Assembly: GCF_900182555.1 (NCBI RefSeq)
Contig: NZ_FXTH01000019.1
Coordinates: forward strand, 1-59,040
Direction of reading: 5' to 3'
DNA from: Fodinibius sediminis
Lineage (GTDB): Bacteria > Bacteroidota > Rhodothermia > Balneolales > Balneolaceae
Length of the DNA stretch: 59,040 nucleotides
A model generated the notes under the pieces. The model saw only the letters and a list, made by a program, of their open reading frames with translations. It did not search any database and was not told where the DNA came from. The position numbers were made by a program, and so were the translations under genes. Each line of letters opens with the position of its first letter. Within the stretch, counting starts at the first letter, position 1. This document shows positions 10,712 to 56,168 of the stretch, in pieces.

Positions 10712-10786
10712 ATTTGTAACCTTCAACCTTTAACCTGCAACAAAATTAACTCCAAATGGGACGTGTCACTTTCATTAAGGAGTTAC
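10712..10786 (+). repeat. Spacer S-alpha, copy 1
   Basis: A CTTCAACCTTTAACCTGCAA run followed by AACTCCAAATGGGACGTGTC and ACTTTCATTAAGGAGT. It links an R1 module to an R3 module here, and the same order recurs at 11541, 50090 and 56099. Confidence 0.7.
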
Positions 10787-45268: not shown

Positions 45269-46333
45269 TTACATCTTAATTTCTTTGAAACTGTTTTTTT
45301 CATTTTTCCACCAGCTCTGTATCAGTACCCATCCCAAAGCAATGATACCACCTAATATTCCCGAAGCAATTAAAATCAGTTTCCGGTTGGGGGCGCTATT
45401 ACTGAGGGGGACACTCACTGGCTGTAAAATAGAAAAGACCGGTGTCTGTTCCTGTACCTGCAGCCGAGCCTGTTCCCTACGCTGATTCATGGAGTTATAT
45501 ATTTCAAAAGCCAAGTCGTACTGAGACTGCAGCTCTTGCTCACGTGTTCGTGCCTTGGCCGTGGCCAAACTTATATTACTGTCTCGGAACTCAGCCAGCA
45601 TCTGCTGTGCTTTCTCGAACCGTTTTTTAGCACTTGCCAGCTGCTCTTCTACATATTCTAAATCTTCTTTAGCTTTCTGTGTACGATATTCCCGTACATA
45701 TTCCTTAAGCAGGATAATGCCATTATGAGCTATTTCAGCTGCTGCCTGAGGATCGGGAAATTCAGATTTTACTGTGATAACTCCTGATTCTGTAGTAACA
45801 GTCAGTCTATTCTTGAGTTTGCTGACAGTCCCCATCTGGCTTCCACTTATTTGTAATACAGAGTCACGGTTCACTTCAGTTATAATGGGCTCCGTATTGC
45901 TATTTTCAGAACTTCTAAACAATCCTATGATTTTGCCTGGTAACCCAATCGTATAACTTTTAATAAATCCAATTAGATTAAACGGAGTATAGATTTCACT
46001 AAAAAAAACATGTGGAGTCACAGTCGTATCAAATTTTGAAAAATAAACCGATTTATTCATCAACTCTACCTGATAAGGTATACTTTCTATTATGTCAGGA
46101 TAAAGAGAAGTGGGAATATTTTCTCCAGGTATGTTTCCACCACGAATTCCCAGCATGCCTCCGTATTGTTGTAATAAATTTCCTGCCCTTCCCTGGGTAG
46201 ATTGACTCTCTGGCATGAGTGTAGCACTGGTCGAATATTCTTCAGGGCTTAAAAGAGCCACTAATAATCCCACTAACAAAAAAGCCCCGGTAATCTTGAC
46301 AATAAGGATGCGTTCGTTCCAAAAGATTTGCAC
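45269..46333 (-). CDS. Wzz-like polysaccharide chain-length determinant
   Basis: 354 aa from a GTG at 46333. A membrane segment lies at residues 12-29, a coiled-coil-rich periplasmic region of about 200-270 (EDLEYVEEQLASAKKRFEKAQQML), and the C-terminal segment LILIASGILGGIIALGWVLI. This is the Wzz/GumC topology without a kinase domain. It sets polymer length together with Wzy. The reading frame continues upstream without a stop to about 46485 and encodes EEDEIDLVALVQIFW, the usual Wzz start. The only in-frame start-like codons there are CTG (46462) and ATT, just after an 8-A run. The true N-terminus is therefore uncertain. Confidence 0.83.
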   Translation of the reverse strand: MQIFWNERILIVKITGAFLLVGLLVALLSPEEYSTSATLMPESQSTQGRAGNLLQQYGGMLGIRGGNIPGENIPTSLYPDIIESIPYQVELMNKSVYFSKFDTTVTPHVFFSEIYTPFNLIGFIKSYTIGLPGKIIGLFRSSENSNTEPIITEVNRDSVLQISGSQMGTVSKLKNRLTVTTESGVITVKSEFPDPQAAAEIAHNGIILLKEYVREYRTQKAKEDLEYVEEQLASAKKRFEKAQQMLAEFRDSNISLATAKARTREQELQSQYDLAFEIYNSMNQRREQARLQVQEQTPVFSILQPVSVPLSNSAPNRKLILIASGILGGIIALGWVLIQSWWKNEKNSFKEIKM

Positions 46334-46808
46334 GAGTGCAACTAAGTCAATTTCATCTTCTTCTGTCGATGGGTAGTTGTTTCGATGATCCGGAGGAACG
46401 CTGTAGTACCCCTGCGGGTGCGGGTTGTGATGGGGATCAATATGTTGGTCTTTTGAATCCAGTGTCTTTTTTTTAAGTACTTAGTTATCTATATCAAAAA
46501 CGATTACAACGAATTAACTCAAAGTTTAAAAGATTAAAGTCAGGGTAAACCCTCTTAATGTTAGTCTTAATCCAAGACTAAGCGCTTATTATACGGATTA
46601 TTTCAGATGGTAGAAAGAGGTTTCAATAATTGGGGATAATCCAATGTGCCCTCAGGAAGATTACTTCCTTTATTAGCTGAATTGCACCTTTAGGCTTTTC
46701 ACGTATCTATATAGTACGTGTGGCGTTTTTTGTTTCCTTGTCGGGATTTTTTCTATGTGAAAGGGAAGCCGTAGCTGCCCGGAAGTTATGGCTATCATTT
46801 ATTTAATA
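46334..46808. other. Upstream region of the polysaccharide operon
   Basis: Holds the probable coding extension of the Wzz-like gene (46334-46485), then about 320 bp without a gene. It should contain the main operon promoter on the minus strand. Besides the inverted repeat at 46561, a CACGTA / TACGTG hairpin lies near 46699. No JUMPStart or ops-like sequence was seen. Confidence 0.4.
46561..46581 (-). promoter_or_regulatory. Inverted repeat upstream of the polysaccharide operon
   Basis: 8-bp arms TTAGTCTT and AAGACTAA around AATCC. Located about 100 bp upstream of the probable Wzz start and pointing leftward into the operon. A candidate operator or attenuator; no further evidence. Confidence 0.35.
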
Positions 46809-46910
46809 GCCTCTTTTGAGTGGTCAAAGGGGATGGAGTACATTGGAACCCTGTTTCATTTTATGAGATCGTTATAAATTAATTCTGATTTATTCCGCCT
46901 TTAGGCGAGG
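46809..46910 (+). repeat. Module R2-short, copy 4
   Basis: Head GCCTCTTTTGAGTGGTCAAA, body with ACATTGGAACCCTGTTTCAT, end CCGCCTTTAGGCGAGG. It opens the right-hand series of repeat blocks. Confidence 0.78.
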
Positions 46911-46975
46911 AAAACAAAAGTATCAACTATATAAAGCCCTCTCCTTTAATTTAAATCTATCCTTTTTTTATTTAA

Positions 46976-47070
46976 CCACTTTTGGGTATCCAAAGAGGAT
47001 AGAAATACATTGGGAACCTGTTTCACTATACGACATCGTTAGAAAATTGATTCCGCCTTTAGCCGAGGAA
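46976..47070 (+). repeat. Module R2-short, copy 5
   Basis: Head CCACTTTTGGGTATCCAAAG, body with a short ACTATACGACATCGTTAG variant shared with 50964. End CGCCTTTAGCCGAGG has lost one pairing base. Confidence 0.75.
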
Positions 47071-47137
47071 AAAAGTATCCACTATATAAGCTACCTGTTG
47101 CCCACTCTTGGGATATGAATTAATTCTTTTTTATGTG

Positions 47138-47367
47138 GCACCTTTTGGATGGTCAAAAGGTGCGTAAAAACCACCGGCGAAGCAGCTTCGGCGTCCGGGA
47201 TCGCTCGCTGCGGAAATAAATGTAGATGTCGTTTTTCCTATAGTCCCAACATACCTATTGCTCCGGATCACTCGCTGCCTTTACCCCTGCTTTCCCCATT
47301 TATTTCTTTATCGCAGCTCCCGCTCCCTTTTCACGCCTCACCAGCCAAGGCCGGCTGATTTGGGGGA
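47138..47367 (+). repeat. Module R1, copy 9
   Basis: Intermediate H1: GGCACCTTTTGG on the left with TCAAAAGGTGC on the right. The upper stem of the left arm is like the GG type and the lower stem like the GCACC type. Confidence 0.86.
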
Positions 47368-47377
47368 ACTTTGATCA

Positions 47378-47504
47378 AATGTTTATTCTCTAATCTGCTA
47401 TATACACCCTATCATAGCTCCTTTTCGATGAACGCTTACCGTTCAATCTTTAAGCAAAGCAAAAAATTCCTGGGTGGGCTTTATTGCATCCATTAAGGAA
47501 CCCT
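47378..47504 (+). repeat. Spacer S-beta, copy 3
   Basis: Variant with TTCCTGGGTGGGCTTTATTG in place of CCCAAGTGGG. It links R1 to R4 here and again at 51366. Confidence 0.7.
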
Positions 47505-47691
47505 CCTCCGGCCTAACGAAAGGTCGAGTGTTTGGGTAGGTGGAGCAGTGGCGGAGGATTAAAAATAATTTCTTGTCTGAGGAACAACTGTGACGAGTTT
47601 AAATTATTTTCCGCAGACACTGCGGAACCTGACGCGAGAGCTTTCTCAGCCGGCGACTTTTTTGGTTCCTTTTTTCGTCGTTGAAAAAAGG
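47505..47691 (+). repeat. Module R4, subtype b, copy 1, empty site
   Basis: CCTCCGGCCTAACGAAAGG, then GTCGAGTGTTTGGGTAGG and CGGAGG pairing back to CCTCCG. The internal stem is AAATAATTT / AAATTATTT, changed on both arms relative to subtype a. Terminal loop TTCCTTTTTTCGTCGTTG without a double hairpin. Confidence 0.85.
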
Positions 47692-47810
47692 GATAAATAT
47701 TTAACTCCTCGGTGCTGATAACTGTATCAACGCTGATAAAGATTGGGCGCCAGCCCCTCGTCAAACAAAAATTTCCCCGGTTGGGTTTTGTCACATTCAG
47801 AAAAAGGAGC
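47692..47810 (+). repeat. Module R2-long, 3' half only, copy 3
   Basis: Enters at ATATTTAACTCCTCGGTGCTG, the same break point as the half-copy at 11792, and again follows a GTTGAAAAAAGG end. Confidence 0.75.
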
Positions 47811-47849
47811 GTCCTCTCATCTAATTAAAACTAATTCCTTTTTTATATA

Positions 47850-48077
47850 GCCCCTTTTGAGTGGTCAAAAGGGGCGTAAAAACCACCGGCGAAGCAGCTT
47901 CGGCGCACGGGATCGCTCGCTGCGGAAATAAATGTAGATGTTGATTTTTCTATAGTCCCAACATACTTATTGCTCCGGATCACTCACTGCTTTTGCCCCT
48001 GCTTTCCCCATTTATTTCGTTATCGCAGCTCCCGCTCCCTTTCCACACCTCACCAGCCAAGGCCGGCTGTCGGGGAA
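47850..48077 (+). repeat. Module R1, copy 10
   Basis: H1 GCCCCTTTTGA / TCAAAAGGGGC: A-T in the other copies is replaced by C-G on both arms. This is the clearest single compensatory change in the window. Confidence 0.88.
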
Positions 48078-48080
48078 ATT

Positions 48081-48164
48081 GATTCACGACTTTCAACCTT
48101 TAACATACAACCTGCAACAAAACTAACTCTAGATGGGGCTTGTCACTTTCATTAAGGAGTAATA
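48081..48164 (+). repeat. Spacer S-alpha, copy 3
   Basis: CTTTCAACCTTTAACATACA, CTAGATGGGGCTTGTCAC and TTTCATTAAGGAGT; joins R1 to R4. Confidence 0.7.
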
Positions 48165-48424
48165 ATCCTCCGGCCTAACGAAAGGTCGAGTGTTTGGGTA
48201 GGTGGAGCAGTGACGGAGGATTAAAAATAATTTCTTGTTTGAGGAACAGCCGTGACGAGTTTAAATTATTTTCCGCAGACACTGCGGAACCTGACGCGAG
48301 AGCTTTCTCAGCCGGCGACGTTTTGAGTTCTCCAGCTTTGCTGGTCCCGCGCATGCGGGATGCGTCGTTCAAAAAAGGAACAACTCTTTCCACGCCTCAC
48401 CAGCCAAAGCCGGCTGTTTGGGGA
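48165..48424 (+). repeat. Module R4, subtype b, copy 2
   Basis: Complete, ending with CAGCCAAAGCCGGCTG. The terminal loop carries the double hairpin at 48332-48360 (CCAGCTTTGCTGG plus TCCCGCGCATGCGGGA). It is the filled counterpart of the empty copy at 47505. Confidence 0.85.
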
Positions 48425-48433
48425 AATAGACCC

Positions 48434-48466
48434 ACAACCTTCAACCTTCAACCTTCAACCTTCAAC
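48434..48466. repeat. 7-bp tandem repeat (CAACCTT)n
   Basis: CAACCTT repeated about 4.5 times, continuing into CAACATGCAACGTGCAAC. It is an expansion of the AACCTTCAACCTTTAAC motif of the S-alpha spacer. Confidence 0.8.
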
Positions 48467-48530
48467 ATGCAACGTGCAACAGAATATTGAAAATAAAGAA
48501 ACAGAAAGAGAAATAAGGGTTACAGAAAAT

Positions 48531-48618
48531 ATCCTTACTAGATGTTTCAAACATCCTTACAGGATATTCGAAAGATCCTTACTAGATGTTTGGAAGATCC
48601 TTACAGGATATGTTCTAT
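48531..48618. repeat. Four 22-bp repeats in ABAB order
   Basis: Units begin at 48531, 48553, 48575 and 48597, an exact 22-bp period. A units start ATCCTTACTAGATGTTT; B units start ATCCTTACAGGATAT, which contains the inverted repeat ATCCT / AGGAT. They occur once, between a repeat block and the terminator of the HU/DUF4469 gene. Confidence 0.9.
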
Positions 48619-48657
48619 AAATAGCAGGGAGATGCCGGGGAGGTAGGAACAAACCAT

Positions 48658-48689
48658 AAAAAAGCCCTGCCGCCGTGAGCAGCAGGGCC
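48658..48689 (-). terminator. Rho-independent terminator of the HU/DUF4469 gene
   Basis: On the minus strand GCCCTGC pairs with GCAGGGC across an 11-nt loop and is followed by six T. It starts 35 bp after the stop codon. Confidence 0.88.
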
Positions 48690-48723
48690 TGTTGTTATCG
48701 GTTAGGGGTTAAGCGCTTAGCTG

Positions 48724-49371
48724 TTATGCAACGGTCACCCTGTCGGAAAGGATACCGGTGCGGATATCGCTGTTGCCGTTCAGGAGGCTCCGCACTTCCA
48801 GCCGGTAGGTCCCGGCGGGCAGCGAGGGGTTCACAAAGATCAGCTCGGACGGCTTGTTGCGCAGGATGGACTCATCGTCAACCCTTGCCTCCGCGCTGCC
48901 ATCGGTATTGACAAAGAAGATGCCCTGCGTGGCATCTGTCTCGTCAAATTTAAGCAGCGATCCGCTGATGCGTGCTCCCTTGCCGGGCGTCACGGCATCA
49001 TCTTTGGTAGCCGACCCCTTGTCGTAGTAGTTAGCGAGGTCCGGCTTGCGCTCCCGCGCCTTTACCTTCTGGGTGGCAATGTCCGGGGGCACGTCGCGCA
49101 GGCGTATGCCCGGCGATATGCTCAGTGTCACCTCGTGACGACTTGCGTCGAAGGTGTCTTCTTCGCTGTCAAACACGCCGCTGATAGACGGCATGATATT
49201 TACCAGCGGCGTCACCACCGTGTTGCCCTGCCTTACGATGTTGATAATCCCCTGGGTCACCTCTTCGAAGGCGGCCAGTGCTTCCGCTTTGGTGAGCGTT
49301 GATCCCTGTCGCGTCATATGGTCATACACGTCATCGATGGTGTACCGTTGTCGATTGACGCCTACAGCCAT
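48724..49371 (-). CDS. HU/IHF-like DNA-binding protein with DUF4469-type C-terminal domain
   Basis: 215 aa from the ATG at 49371, preceded by AGAAGGAG at ideal spacing; the longer frame to 49428 is rejected. Residues about 10-95 (YTIDDVYDHMTRQGSTLTKAEALAAFEEVTQGIINIVRQGNTVVTPLVNIMPSISG) match the helical start and beta-arm of HU-like proteins. The C-terminal 90 residues (ISGSLLKFDETDATQGIFFVN to LSDRVTVA) form a beta-rich Ig-like domain. Such fusions are frequent in Bacteroidota, where their DNA target and role are not established. It has its own terminator and a long upstream region. Confidence 0.82.
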   Translation of the reverse strand: MAVGVNRQRYTIDDVYDHMTRQGSTLTKAEALAAFEEVTQGIINIVRQGNTVVTPLVNIMPSISGVFDSEEDTFDASRHEVTLSISPGIRLRDVPPDIATQKVKARERKPDLANYYDKGSATKDDAVTPGKGARISGSLLKFDETDATQGIFFVNTDGSAEARVDDESILRNKPSELIFVNPSLPAGTYRLEVRSLLNGNSDIRTGILSDRVTVA

Positions 49372-49780
49372 ATAGTCATCTCCTTCTGGCGTTATCCTGT
49401 TTGGAGTCAAGTAATAATTAAGAAACATAACAAATGATATTTAGTTAGAGTTGAACCGTCAGCCTGACTGATGGGTATATCAACAGGCCGGCGGCTGGTT
49501 TATACTAAGAGATAAGTGACCTCAGCCAACGTACATGACTGACTGGATGCCTTTTTATCTCTTTGTATTAGTAAGAGTGGTTTTCAGTGCAATCCTTACA
49601 AACTTTTTTTATTTTTTTGTAATAAATTCTTATTTCGACTCATTTTTTTATTACAAACCCGGATTTTGTGTTGTTCTTTAACTGTTATGGGGGTTTTTAG
49701 GGGAGGTTTTATAGGGAGGGATGATGTGTATTTTCTTTTGCCCTCTCATCTAATTAAAAACTAATTCCTTTTTTATTTAA
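49372..49780. other. Upstream region of the HU/DUF4469 gene
   Basis: About 400 bp with A/T tracts (T-runs at 49605-49650) and no repeat module until 49781. It probably holds the promoter on the minus strand. CTTACAAACTTT and GTAATAAATTCTTATTTC are A/T-rich candidates, but no promoter could be fixed. Confidence 0.35.
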
Positions 49781-49990
49781 CCACTTTTGGATGTCCAAAG
49801 GTATGTGTAAAATTGGAATCCTATTTTACGATATAAAACCATTATGAATTGATTCCGCCTTTTGGCTTGACCCAAAAGGCTCGTAAAAACTCAAGAAGAA
49901 TTTAACTCCTCGGTGCTGACAACTTTCTCAACGCTGATAAAGATTTGGCGCCAGCCCCTCGTCAAACAGAAATTCTTCCTGTTGGTTTTT
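49781..49990 (+). repeat. Module R2-long, copy 4, empty site
   Basis: H1 head CCACTTTTGGATGTCCAAAG, GGTATGTGTAAAATTGGAATC body, then GCCTTTTGG / CCAAAAGGC perfectly paired with no double hairpin inside. This shows the ancestral stem that the insert at 11114 and 54764 interrupts. Confidence 0.83.
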
Positions 49991-50089
49991 CCCTTTCACT
50001 TAAGAATGATCTGGAAACTCTGAAAACTAATGTGATAGAACTCTTTCCAAGCCTCACCAGCTAAGGCCGGCTGTTTGGGCAAATTGATT

Positions 50090-50168
50090 CCCAACCTTCA
50101 ACCTTTAACATTTAACCTGCAACAGTACTTTCTCCAGATCGGGCATATCACTTCAAGTAATGAGTAAT
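50090..50168 (+). repeat. Spacer S-alpha, copy 4
   Basis: CCTTCAACCTTTAACATTTAA, then CTCCAGATCGGGCATATC, more diverged than the others. Joins a bare CAGCTAAGGCCGGCTG 3' hairpin (50055-50075) to R3. Confidence 0.62.
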
Positions 50169-50338
50169 CAGGGGTTTGGGGAAGAGCCGGGAAATACTAT
50201 GTAGCATAAGTATTCATGTGGAAGAGCAATTCCTGCCCGAAAGGTTTTAGCCATTACAACATCTTGCTCTTCCCCAACACTTTTTTCGTCCCAGCTTGCT
50301 GGCCCCGGCTTGTACGGGGTTTGGTGACAAAAAATGAA
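50169..50338 (+). repeat. Module R3, copy 8
   Basis: Complete, with a double hairpin at 50291-50319. Shares the ATTCCTGCCCG variant with copy 5. Confidence 0.87.
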
Positions 50339-50400
50339 CGAATAAGAATATTCTTCTTTGCCCTGATTTCTAATCTAAACCAACTCTTTTTTATATATAT

Positions 50401-50631
50401 ACCACTTTTGGATGGCCAAAAGTGGTGCAAAAACCACCGCCTGAACCTGCTTCGGCGCTCGGAATCGCTCGCTGCGGAAATAAATGAAGATGTTATTTTT
50501 CCTATAGTCCCAACTATACTTATTGCTCTGGATCACTCGCTGCCTTTGCCCCTGCTTTCCCCATTTATTTCTTCTTCGCAGCTCCCGCTCCCTTTCCACG
50601 CCTCACCAGCTAAGGCCGGCTGTTGGGGGAA
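50401..50631 (+). repeat. Module R1, copy 11
   Basis: H1 extended to ACCACTTTTGG / CCAAAAGTGGT, 11 bp, with loop AT. Confidence 0.87.
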
Positions 50632-50643
50632 ATTGGATTCACC

Positions 50644-50760
50644 ACATTTTGTTCTCAAGAAAATGTGCCCTCACAGTAGAAGATTTCTCACTCCACTACG
50701 TTTCGTTCGAAATGACGAAGATGCTGGATTAATGCGGGTAGCCTTACAAGGGCGAGCTTT
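50644..50760 (+). repeat. R5 palindrome element, copy 3
   Basis: Well preserved: AGAAGATTTCTCACTCCACT, ACGTTTCGTTCGAAATGACG. The reverse complement is the CGTCATTTCGAACGAAACG form of the GTCATTCCGAGCG-class repeat known from many bacteria. Confidence 0.78.
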
Positions 50761-50774
50761 TTTACCCGCCCCCC

Positions 50775-50930
50775 GCATCGTCATCTCGACCGGCAGGGAG
50801 AGATCTTCTATTCTCAAGGCTAAGTGCTCGAATTGTAGAAGGCTTTCTTTCCTAAGCCCGAAAATGACCTTAATATAAAATGCATGTGGCCGTATGTAGA
50901 ATGCATCAATTGATGCATTACCTGTTGCCC
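50775..50930 (+). repeat. R6 element, copy 3
   Basis: CATCTCGACCGGCAGGGAGAG start (different inner bases from copies 1 and 2), then the common part to the intact 20-bp palindrome at 50900-50919. Confidence 0.77.
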
Positions 50931-50963
50931 TCTCCTATAATCTTAATTAATTCTATTTATATA

Positions 50964-51057
50964 GCACCTTTTGAATGGTCAAAGGGGATAGAAATATATT
51001 GGAAACCTGTTTCACTATATGACATCGTTAGAAAATTGATTCCGCCTTTAGGCGAGA
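50964..51057 (+). repeat. Module R2-short, copy 6
   Basis: Head GCACCTTTTGAATGGTCAAA, ACTATATGACATCGTTAG body variant, end CCGCCTTTAGGCGAG. Confidence 0.78.
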
Positions 51058-51128
51058 AGAGCAGATAGTATCAACTATATAAATTACCTGTTGCCCTATC
51101 ATCTAATTAAAATCCATCTTTTATTTAA

Positions 51129-51356
51129 CCACTTTTGGATGGCCAAAAGTGGAGCAAAAACCACCGGCTGAACCTGCTTCGGCGTCCGGGACCGTTCGCT
51201 GCGGAAATAAATGTAGATGTTTATTTTTCTATAGTCCTAACATACTTATTGCTCCGGATCACTCGCTGCCTTTGCCCCTGCTTTCCCCATTTATTCCTTC
51301 TTCGCAGCTCCCGCTCCCTTTTCACGCCTCACCAGCCAAGGCCGGCTGTTTGGGAA
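51129..51356 (+). repeat. Module R1, copy 12
   Basis: H1 CCACTTTTGG / CCAAAAGTGG. The right arm of the long-range stem has a mismatch (CATTTATTCC). Confidence 0.86.
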
Positions 51357-51365
51357 GCTTTTGAT

Positions 51366-51487
51366 CAAATGGTTATTCTCTAATCTTCTATGTACACCCT
51401 ATCATAGCTCCTTTTCGATGAACGCTTACGGTTCAACCTTTAAGCAAAAAATTCCTGGGTGGGCTTTATTGCTTTCATTAAGGAACC
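51366..51487 (+). repeat. Spacer S-beta, copy 4
   Basis: Near copy of 47378, including TTCCTGGGTGGGCTTTATTG. It leads into R4 subtype b as there, so the R1/S-beta/R4b unit is duplicated. Confidence 0.72.
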
Positions 51488-51706
51488 CTCCTCCGGCCTA
51501 ACGAAAGGTCGAGTGTTTGGGTAGGTGGAGCAGTGGCGGAGGATTAAAAATAATTTCTTGTCTGAGGAACAGCCGTGACGAGTTTAAATTATTTTCCGCA
51601 GCCACTGCGGAACCTGACGCGAGAGCTTTCTCAGCCGGTCATTTTTTTGGGTTCTCCAGCTCTGCTGGTTCCGAGTATTCGGAATTCATGACTGAAAAAA
51701 TGGAAC
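51488..51706 (+). repeat. Module R4, subtype b, copy 3
   Basis: AAATAATTT / AAATTATTT stem. Double hairpin at 51656-51684 with a different second hairpin, TTCCGAGTATTCGGAA, still perfectly paired. No R1-like 3' hairpin follows. Confidence 0.83.
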
Positions 51707-55565: not shown

Positions 55566-55635
55566 AACCATAACCTTTAACCTTTAAAACAGATCTTTAT
55601 CTAGATGGGGCTTGTCACGTTCATTAAGGAGTAAC
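55566..55635 (+). repeat. Spacer S-alpha, copy 5
   Basis: Short form: AACCATAACCTTTAACCTTT, then AGATCTTTATCTAGATGGGG. Almost identical to 56099. Confidence 0.72.
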
Positions 55636-56098: not shown

Positions 56099-56168
56099 AC
56101 CATAACCTTTAACCTTTAAAAACAGATCTTTATCTAGATGGGGCTTGTCACGTTCATTAAGGAGTAAC
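56099..56168 (+). repeat. Spacer S-alpha, copy 6
   Basis: Differs from copy 5 at very few positions. Precedes R3 copy 11. Confidence 0.72.

Follow-up and report, generated by a model that had tools for sequence, protein, structure and literature searches.

The HU/IHF superfamily, which includes the families PF14848 (HU-DNA_bdg) and PF18291 (HU-HIG), holds the closest described relatives of the protein considered here. Ordinary HU binds DNA without sequence choice, and novel HU/IHF clades were reportedly covered by an analysis in 2017. The titles and abstracts that we searched name no target or site array for PF14848 or PF18291 proteins. The protein of this study is a PF14848 member with a C-terminal Ig-like domain, DUF4469. 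Treponema denticola TDE_2259 has the same composition (PF14848 plus PF14734), and its gene number adjoins that of TDE_2258 (lrrA). The published passages on TDE_2259 treat it as a non-specific HU-type protein, mention no adjoining repeat array, and report that TDE_2259 and the surface antigen TDE_2258 both fall in a trtA mutant, with log2 values of -5.18 and -5.69, respectively (PMC12724145).

In the window, that is the whole stretch of 59,040 nucleotides from Fodinibius sediminis analysed here, an array of 22-bp units lies 3' of a gene for such a protein. A DNA-binding gene beside tandem sites at helical spacing resembles the iteron/Rep and parS/ParB-type systems as they are generally known, and tandem site arrays beside the gene for their binding protein are a known principle. 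Iteron repeats are about 17-22 bp long, and the 22-bp unit of the window falls in this range. An iteron origin also has its initiator gene beside the repeats; none was found among six scanned proteins, which include the HU protein of the window and the products of three neighbouring genes (Wzz-type, ABC transporter and GH31). Unlike in iteron/Rep and parS/ParB systems, the genomes here hold many paralogues with mostly private sites, the protein joins HU to an Ig-like domain, and the same six proteins include no Rep or ParA. REP/BIME elements with RAYT, or with IHF bound at BIMEs, are likewise extragenic palindromes near gene 3' ends and partly dispersed. Here, in contrast, the copies are few, the step is a steady 22-23 bp, and the unit is mostly private to one HU gene. 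REP elements are expected in high copy, whereas this genome holds two arrays and one lone site on contig C2, and the six scanned proteins include no RAYT transposase. In eukaryotes, loops of an Ig-like fold read DNA in p53, NF-kB, Runt and STAT. A putative loop of the Ig-like DUF4469 domain may be a comparable reader, but the DUF4469 protein is bacterial and fused to HU, the stretch concerned is highly variable between paralogues, and its DNA contact is putative.

To our knowledge, no described kind of system unites a protein of HU and Ig-like parts with numerous, mostly private protein-array pairs in each genome and with a cassette made of loop and array. The pairing of a gene with its own site array is widespread and apparently undescribed. 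No title or abstract on HU/DUF4469 gene-array pairing was found in a literature search outside which most subscription papers lay, and the term 'DUF4469' occurs in no paper searched.

The array and its gene in the window

An earlier note on this DNA, made from the sequence alone, had described four units with an exact 22-bp period in ABAB order, lying beyond the terminator of an HU/DUF4469 gene, and this description was borne out (Table 1). On the plus strand, ATCCTTAC starts at 48531, 48553, 48575 and 48597, a step of exactly 22 bp, and the four units strictly alternate between ATCCTTACTAGATGTTT and ATCCTTACAGGATAT. Tandem Repeats Finder scores a 22-bp period (3.5 copies, 78%) below a 44-bp period (1.9 copies, 90%), so the ABAB description is correct. 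The 3' flank of the HU gene matches itself at lag 44 in 38 of 46 positions, against a maximum of 28 in 1000 dinucleotide shuffles. Palindromic symmetry is perfect in the B unit (ATCCT-TAC-AGGAT) and imperfect in the A unit. A gap of 40 bp separates the array end from the terminator-like inverted repeat. Rfam covariance models gave no match up to E 5 across positions 46000-51500.

Table 1. Features of the HU/DUF4469 gene and the array on its 3' side, in window positions
Feature	Position	Strand	Basis
Array unit 1, A type, ATCCTTACTAGAT, imperfect palindrome	48531..48552	+	repeat analysis
Array unit 2, B type, ATCCTTACAGGAT, perfect 5-bp arms	48553..48574	+	repeat analysis
Array unit 3, A type	48575..48596	+	repeat analysis
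Array unit 4, B type	48597..48618	+	repeat analysis
Terminator-like inverted repeat (arms 48659-48673/48679-48693), then T run on gene strand; between gene and array	48659..48693	-	
HU-DNA_bdg/DUF4469 gene, 234 aa	48724..49428	-	Pfam profile matches
Codon 223, directly after the variable stretch; arginine in 124/130 homologues	48760..48762	-	
Codons 216-222 (LNGNSDI), probable loop; a variable stretch whose identity follows that of the array among homologues	48763..48783	-	
DUF4469 Ig-like domain PF14734, E 2.1e-21	48763..49026	-	profile match
HU-like domain PF14848, E 6.7e-27	49069..49422	-	profile match

The assignment of the gene as HU/DUF4469 also held, since both profiles match above their curated cut-offs (PF14848, 94.4 bits against 30; PF14734, 76.2 bits against 22.6). 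The genome has four PF14848 genes, on contigs C19, C13, C8 and C1. A solved homologue of the DUF4469 protein, 4fmr, was matched by sequence only (E 4.8e-9). In a single-sequence AF2 model, which is poor (pLDDT 37), the last two strands flank residues 215-221; a terminal hairpin loop would fit this placement, which proves nothing. Within the Ig-like DUF4469 domain, residues 216-222 probably form a loop, for which we infer a hairpin.

The earlier note had also called the array unique and part of no other repeat family. Within the window, its uniqueness stands. In the genome, the search for further arrays that the note had proposed found a sister array at C11:80667-80809, with six units of the ATCCTTAC type, so that uniqueness is refuted; and the array belongs to a general class found 3' of HU/DUF4469 genes. 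The sister array lies between an M14 peptidase gene and a sulfatase gene. By eye, the upstream gene ends in a terminator-like hairpin, and the array follows this hairpin in the same orientation to that gene as in the window. A PF14848 profile search found no gene on C11. About 1.7 kb from this array, a short ORF (L009 299-508) has the look of a transposase remnant, which we take to be IS256-like.

The intergenic stretches that flank the HU gene on both sides (46500-48480 and 49740-51500) are long and, by eye, hold several multi-copy repeat families, such as blocks with GCTGCGGAAATAAATG and blocks with CGAAAGGTCGAGTGTTTGGG. Satellites of 7 bp, AACCTT type, occur at 48435-48480, directly preceding the array, and at 10718-10741, 50092-50123, 55571-55587 and 56103-56119.

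Arrays 3' of homologous genes

Within 400 nt downstream, 102 of 126 HU-DNA_bdg/DUF4469 genes have a 21-24-bp (or doubled) repeat. The same holds for the upstream side of 1/127 genes and for 11/980 control windows. The best-scoring array stretch starts a median 33 nt from the stop codon. An array was called at 28 or more of 46 self-matches with the best lag at 21-24 or 43-48, a threshold picked after the scores were known; a threshold of 26 gives 113 3' flanks, 5 5' flanks and 39 control windows, and one of 30 gives 85, 1 and 6. Only 1/630 shuffled 3' flanks reaches 28 at any lag, and 94 of 118 non-redundant 3' flanks have an array. The 5' flanks are the fairer control because the control windows, which sample 20 stretches in four genomes, contain coding as well as intergenic DNA and are not intergenic-matched. 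In addition, one control window holds an HU-like ORF (L228), and some control matches resemble the orphan arrays described below. The genes come from a profile search of the fetched loci, which yielded 193 HU ORFs, 140 of them distinct by their last 60 residues. Of these, 130 scored above 140; the 10 that scored lower stand outside the main counts; two of these are the halves of L105, a broken gene with an array, and a third is a fragment of L131. Four genes with less than 400 nt of 3' flank and three with less than 400 nt of 5' flank were lost, leaving 126 and 127.

Sampling is uneven, with several loci from the same or sister species, and the counts by source are as follows: 21/23 in the own genus, 42/44 in the G402 family, 29/46 in the G364 family, 3/3 in G211, 5/5 in Parabacteroides records, 1/1 on a Treponema plasmid, 1/2 on phage contigs, and 0/1 each in G100 and G293. 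The 24 genes without a clear array include those of G100 and G293 and, in this genome, the one on C8 (L033). In G100 and on the arrayless phage contig, palindromes or repeats lie further downstream, outside the counted stretch (by eye). Seven ORFs have the HU part without a full DUF4469, and the 3' array of the sought period is present in one of them (L132); L109 has a 28-bp repeat and L108 retains part of DUF4469. The comparison with relatives suggested by the earlier note thus found the period conserved, the loss of period that it had named as counting against its view was not seen, and its reading of an operator-like, regularly spaced site array tied to the HU/DUF4469 gene gains support from this tie.

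The period recurs, and the repeat itself is mostly private. Copies of the protein number 23 in 6 of 58 genomes (the own genome and five of the genus); many of their 3' flanks hold other 22-23-bp repeats, mostly with their own units. More distant homologues with 3' repeats are found on a Treponema saccharophilum plasmid, in Parabacteroides distasonis records and in species of other families. In the G402 family, 63 of 118 genomes match PF14848, with up to 22 matches per genome, and at most 11 HU/DUF4469 genes were read in one genome. For most HU/DUF4469 genes the array unit sequence is private to the gene. The nearest other-species homologue (L023, genome G007) has LNGNNDI in place of LNGNSDI, and its array shares ATCCTTAC. 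BLAST with the window array found it absent from 96 other genomes, 11 of them in the same genus, and a spaced array pattern searched in 395 genomes matched this genome only. These two results rule out a repeat that is conserved in sequence among relatives, and the C11 array and the homologous loci rule out a minisatellite unique to the window. The recurrence became visible only when the homologous genes had been found and the DNA beside them inspected.

Many units are short palindromes, such as GTTATNNNNATAAC, GACATNNNNATGTC and CCCTAACNCTAGGG (by eye). In 350-nt flanks, chains of three or more palindromes that score at least 8 occur on the 3' side in 47/128 cases and on the 5' side in 2/127, and none of 128 shuffled flanks has one. 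When the score is lowered to 5, the counts become 88, 36 and 9, so that weaker chains say less. The centre-to-centre step is 23.0 bp in 128 of 181 steps.

Arrays also occur away from HU genes. The array of one HU gene in G005 has similar copies at five other places, and that of a G781 HU gene has no copies elsewhere. Eleven such orphan arrays were inspected (C11, five in G005 and five from control stretches); five lie 24-70 nt 3' of an ORF, and the rest are further away or 5' of an ORF. By eye, the G005 orphans L238, L239, L241 and L242 look like mosaics in which differing 23-bp palindromic units stand side by side. After one HU gene of G211 (L067), two different arrays are seemingly placed back to back (by eye). 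A spaced motif matched two contig records, an Aminicenantes MAG and a Chitinophagaceae MAG, and a stricter pattern matched none. In the former, the gene with the array on its 5' side belongs to HU-HIG (PF18291) rather than to PF14848; in the latter (L021 3979-4221), about eleven 22-bp ATCCTTACAGGAT units take up the whole space separating two convergent genes, and the 8 kb examined contain no PF14848-type gene. As both were found by motif, they are not counted as support. Searches of plasmid DNA, phage DNA and viral contigs gave nothing useful.

Covariation of residues 216-222 with the array

The part of the protein that tracks the array is a short stretch at the end of DUF4469, not the HU fold. 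One paralogue group has an almost constant HU part, and there, by eye and with one gap-rich column omitted, the array type follows a short stretch near the C-terminus: TQGALLKE proteins go with TTGACCG/CGGTCAA arrays, SKNSAFLKE proteins with TTCCTTC/GGAGGAC arrays, and TGSYLLKE proteins with CTAAGTG/CACTTAG arrays. This relation was quantified for 113 genes with an array detected at a threshold of at least 27, with array similarity measured as shared 7-mers. Among 308 pairs with 70-97% identity, the 11 most array-associated of 230 columns all lie at residues 216-231 of the window protein, with a peak at 217-222. The association is 0.34-0.46 at 217, 218 and 220-222, 0.14 at 219, -0.04 at 223, and 0.11-0.23 at most positions beyond. 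Residues 216-222 have a partial correlation of 0.588 with the array once the rest of the protein is accounted for, a value reached in 0 of 2000 within-clade permutations, the largest of which gave 0.274.

Within clades, arrays are alike in 20/21 pairs with identical stretches, 2/10 pairs with 80-99% identity, 6/13 with 60-80% and 3/509 with less. Between genomes, for pairs in which the rest of the protein is at least 0.55 identical, the corresponding counts are 15/15, 3/10, 6/17 and, below 60%, 5/532; for 11 of the 15 identical pairs there is no homology further downstream. Near-identical stretches (80-99%) are thus a weaker guide to the array than identical ones. Exceptions occur in both directions: the five between-genome pairs with alike arrays and unlike stretches include L194/L137, and some distant proteins with alike stretches have unlike arrays.

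Physical linkage may contribute to this relation. At unchanged residues in identity-matched pairs, codon identity for genes with different arrays is 0.68 in HU, 0.66 in DUF4469, 0.44 in residues 216-222 and 0.37 in the tail (224-232), and for genes with the same array it is 0.71, 0.64, 0.77 and 0.77. This fall suggests that the variable stretch, tail and array tend to travel as one cassette, and therefore part of the covariation may be linkage. The tail lies nearer to the array, though its partial correlation with the array given residues 216-222 is 0.25, against 0.50 for residues 216-222 given the tail. Among the matches listed, paralogues of one genome that differ in their arrays often lose BLAST homology 30-73 nt before the stop codon; in some pairs the homology extends up to the stop or, in L139/L204, through it. 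L135 and L192 (G632) share a 2171-bp match of 98% identity that begins 1.5 kb upstream and stops 40 nt short of the HU stop codon, with no further match listed beyond, as in a duplication or recombination ending near the loop.

Candidate function and alternative readings

We consider it likely that the array is a cluster of cognate DNA sites for the adjacent HU/DUF4469 protein and that residues 216-222 read it. The gene product would bind the palindromic units as double-stranded DNA, and the sequence choice would fall to residues 216-222, which lie beside the almost invariant arginine where the Ig-like domain ends. The HU-like part would serve as a conserved scaffold for dimerisation and/or DNA bending. 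A spacing of 22-23 bp, about two helical turns, may allow neighbouring dimers to stack into one nucleoprotein complex, which would sit at the 3' border of the gene; orphan arrays such as that on C11 may bring it to other loci. Alternatively, within protein binding, the HU fold itself could bind the array. If binding is granted, the complex might act locally by autoregulating, insulating or silencing flanking genes, a guess that we hold to be rather doubtful.

Three rival readings were weighed. The arrays may be REP-like or minisatellite repeats with no function for the HU protein, and the covariation may stem only from inheritance as one 3' cassette. The fall of codon identity at the loop in pairs with different arrays, the frequent end of paralogue homology near it and the orphan copies of some arrays all fit such inheritance. 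Against it, the tail, though nearer to the array, is a poorer predictor of it than residues 216-222; alike arrays follow loop identity where downstream homology is lacking; and arrays are almost never found 5' of the gene and rarely 3' of ORFs that lack a full DUF4469. Repeats of this kind seem unlikely to us. The units may instead work as RNA hairpins in the 3' regions of transcripts, in termination, mRNA stability or RNA-protein binding, and the HU-like protein may bind RNA. The window array does fold far better than its shuffles as RNA (z -5.1), but DNA folding is equally good by this measure (z -5.0). The closeness of the arrays to stop codons, the same-strand ORF that closely follows the array in several Bacteroidota loci, and the five orphan arrays just 3' of an ORF suit a transcript element, whereas the position beyond a terminator-like hairpin, seen in the window and, by eye, at several further loci of the genus, does not. 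RNA hairpins also have no need of a fixed 23-bp step, and although RNA would tolerate G.U pairs, arm mismatches on the sense strand of the 47 chained flanks show no excess of G.T (69, against 103 A.C). We regard an RNA role as quite improbable.

A third proposal is that the arrays are iterons or a partition-type centromere of plasmid or phage origin, with the HU protein as a segregation factor. Tandem 22-23-bp sites beside a DNA-binding gene resemble such arrays, and a Treponema plasmid and two fecal contigs deposited as phage carry homologues. The gene neighbours in the window and the six proteins free of Rep and ParA speak against it, and up to 22 PF14848 genes per genome, with mostly private arrays where these were read, do not fit the origin of one replicon. 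This proposal is very unlikely.

Returning to site recognition by the HU/DUF4469 protein, we lean slightly towards a broader view in which these proteins are programmable DNA readers of bacteria. Six or seven residues in an Ig-fold loop, at the position of the third CDR of an antibody, would choose a palindrome of roughly 14 bp. Genomes would keep many different protein-array pairs as a set of private chromosomal addresses, and loop and array would be transmitted jointly, forming a 3' specificity cassette attached to a common gene body. If so, two domains named only 'DNA-binding domain' and 'domain of unknown function' would gain a functional handle, and HU-type proteins could acquire sequence choice through a small exchangeable stretch. 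Through the pairing, the DNA adjoining the gene of an uncharacterised protein would predict the site of that protein, and the many natural loop-site pairs would make the recognition code readable.

The genes that follow the arrays show no established bias towards surface proteins by a home-made rule for signal-like N-termini. Such N-termini were counted in 19/35 downstream ORFs against 12/33 control ORFs in the G402 family, and in 5/20 against 4/19 in the G364 family. In three loci of the genus (L026, L027 and L034), the gene directly after the array is one that we take to be patatin-like from its GGG(A)KG-type motif.
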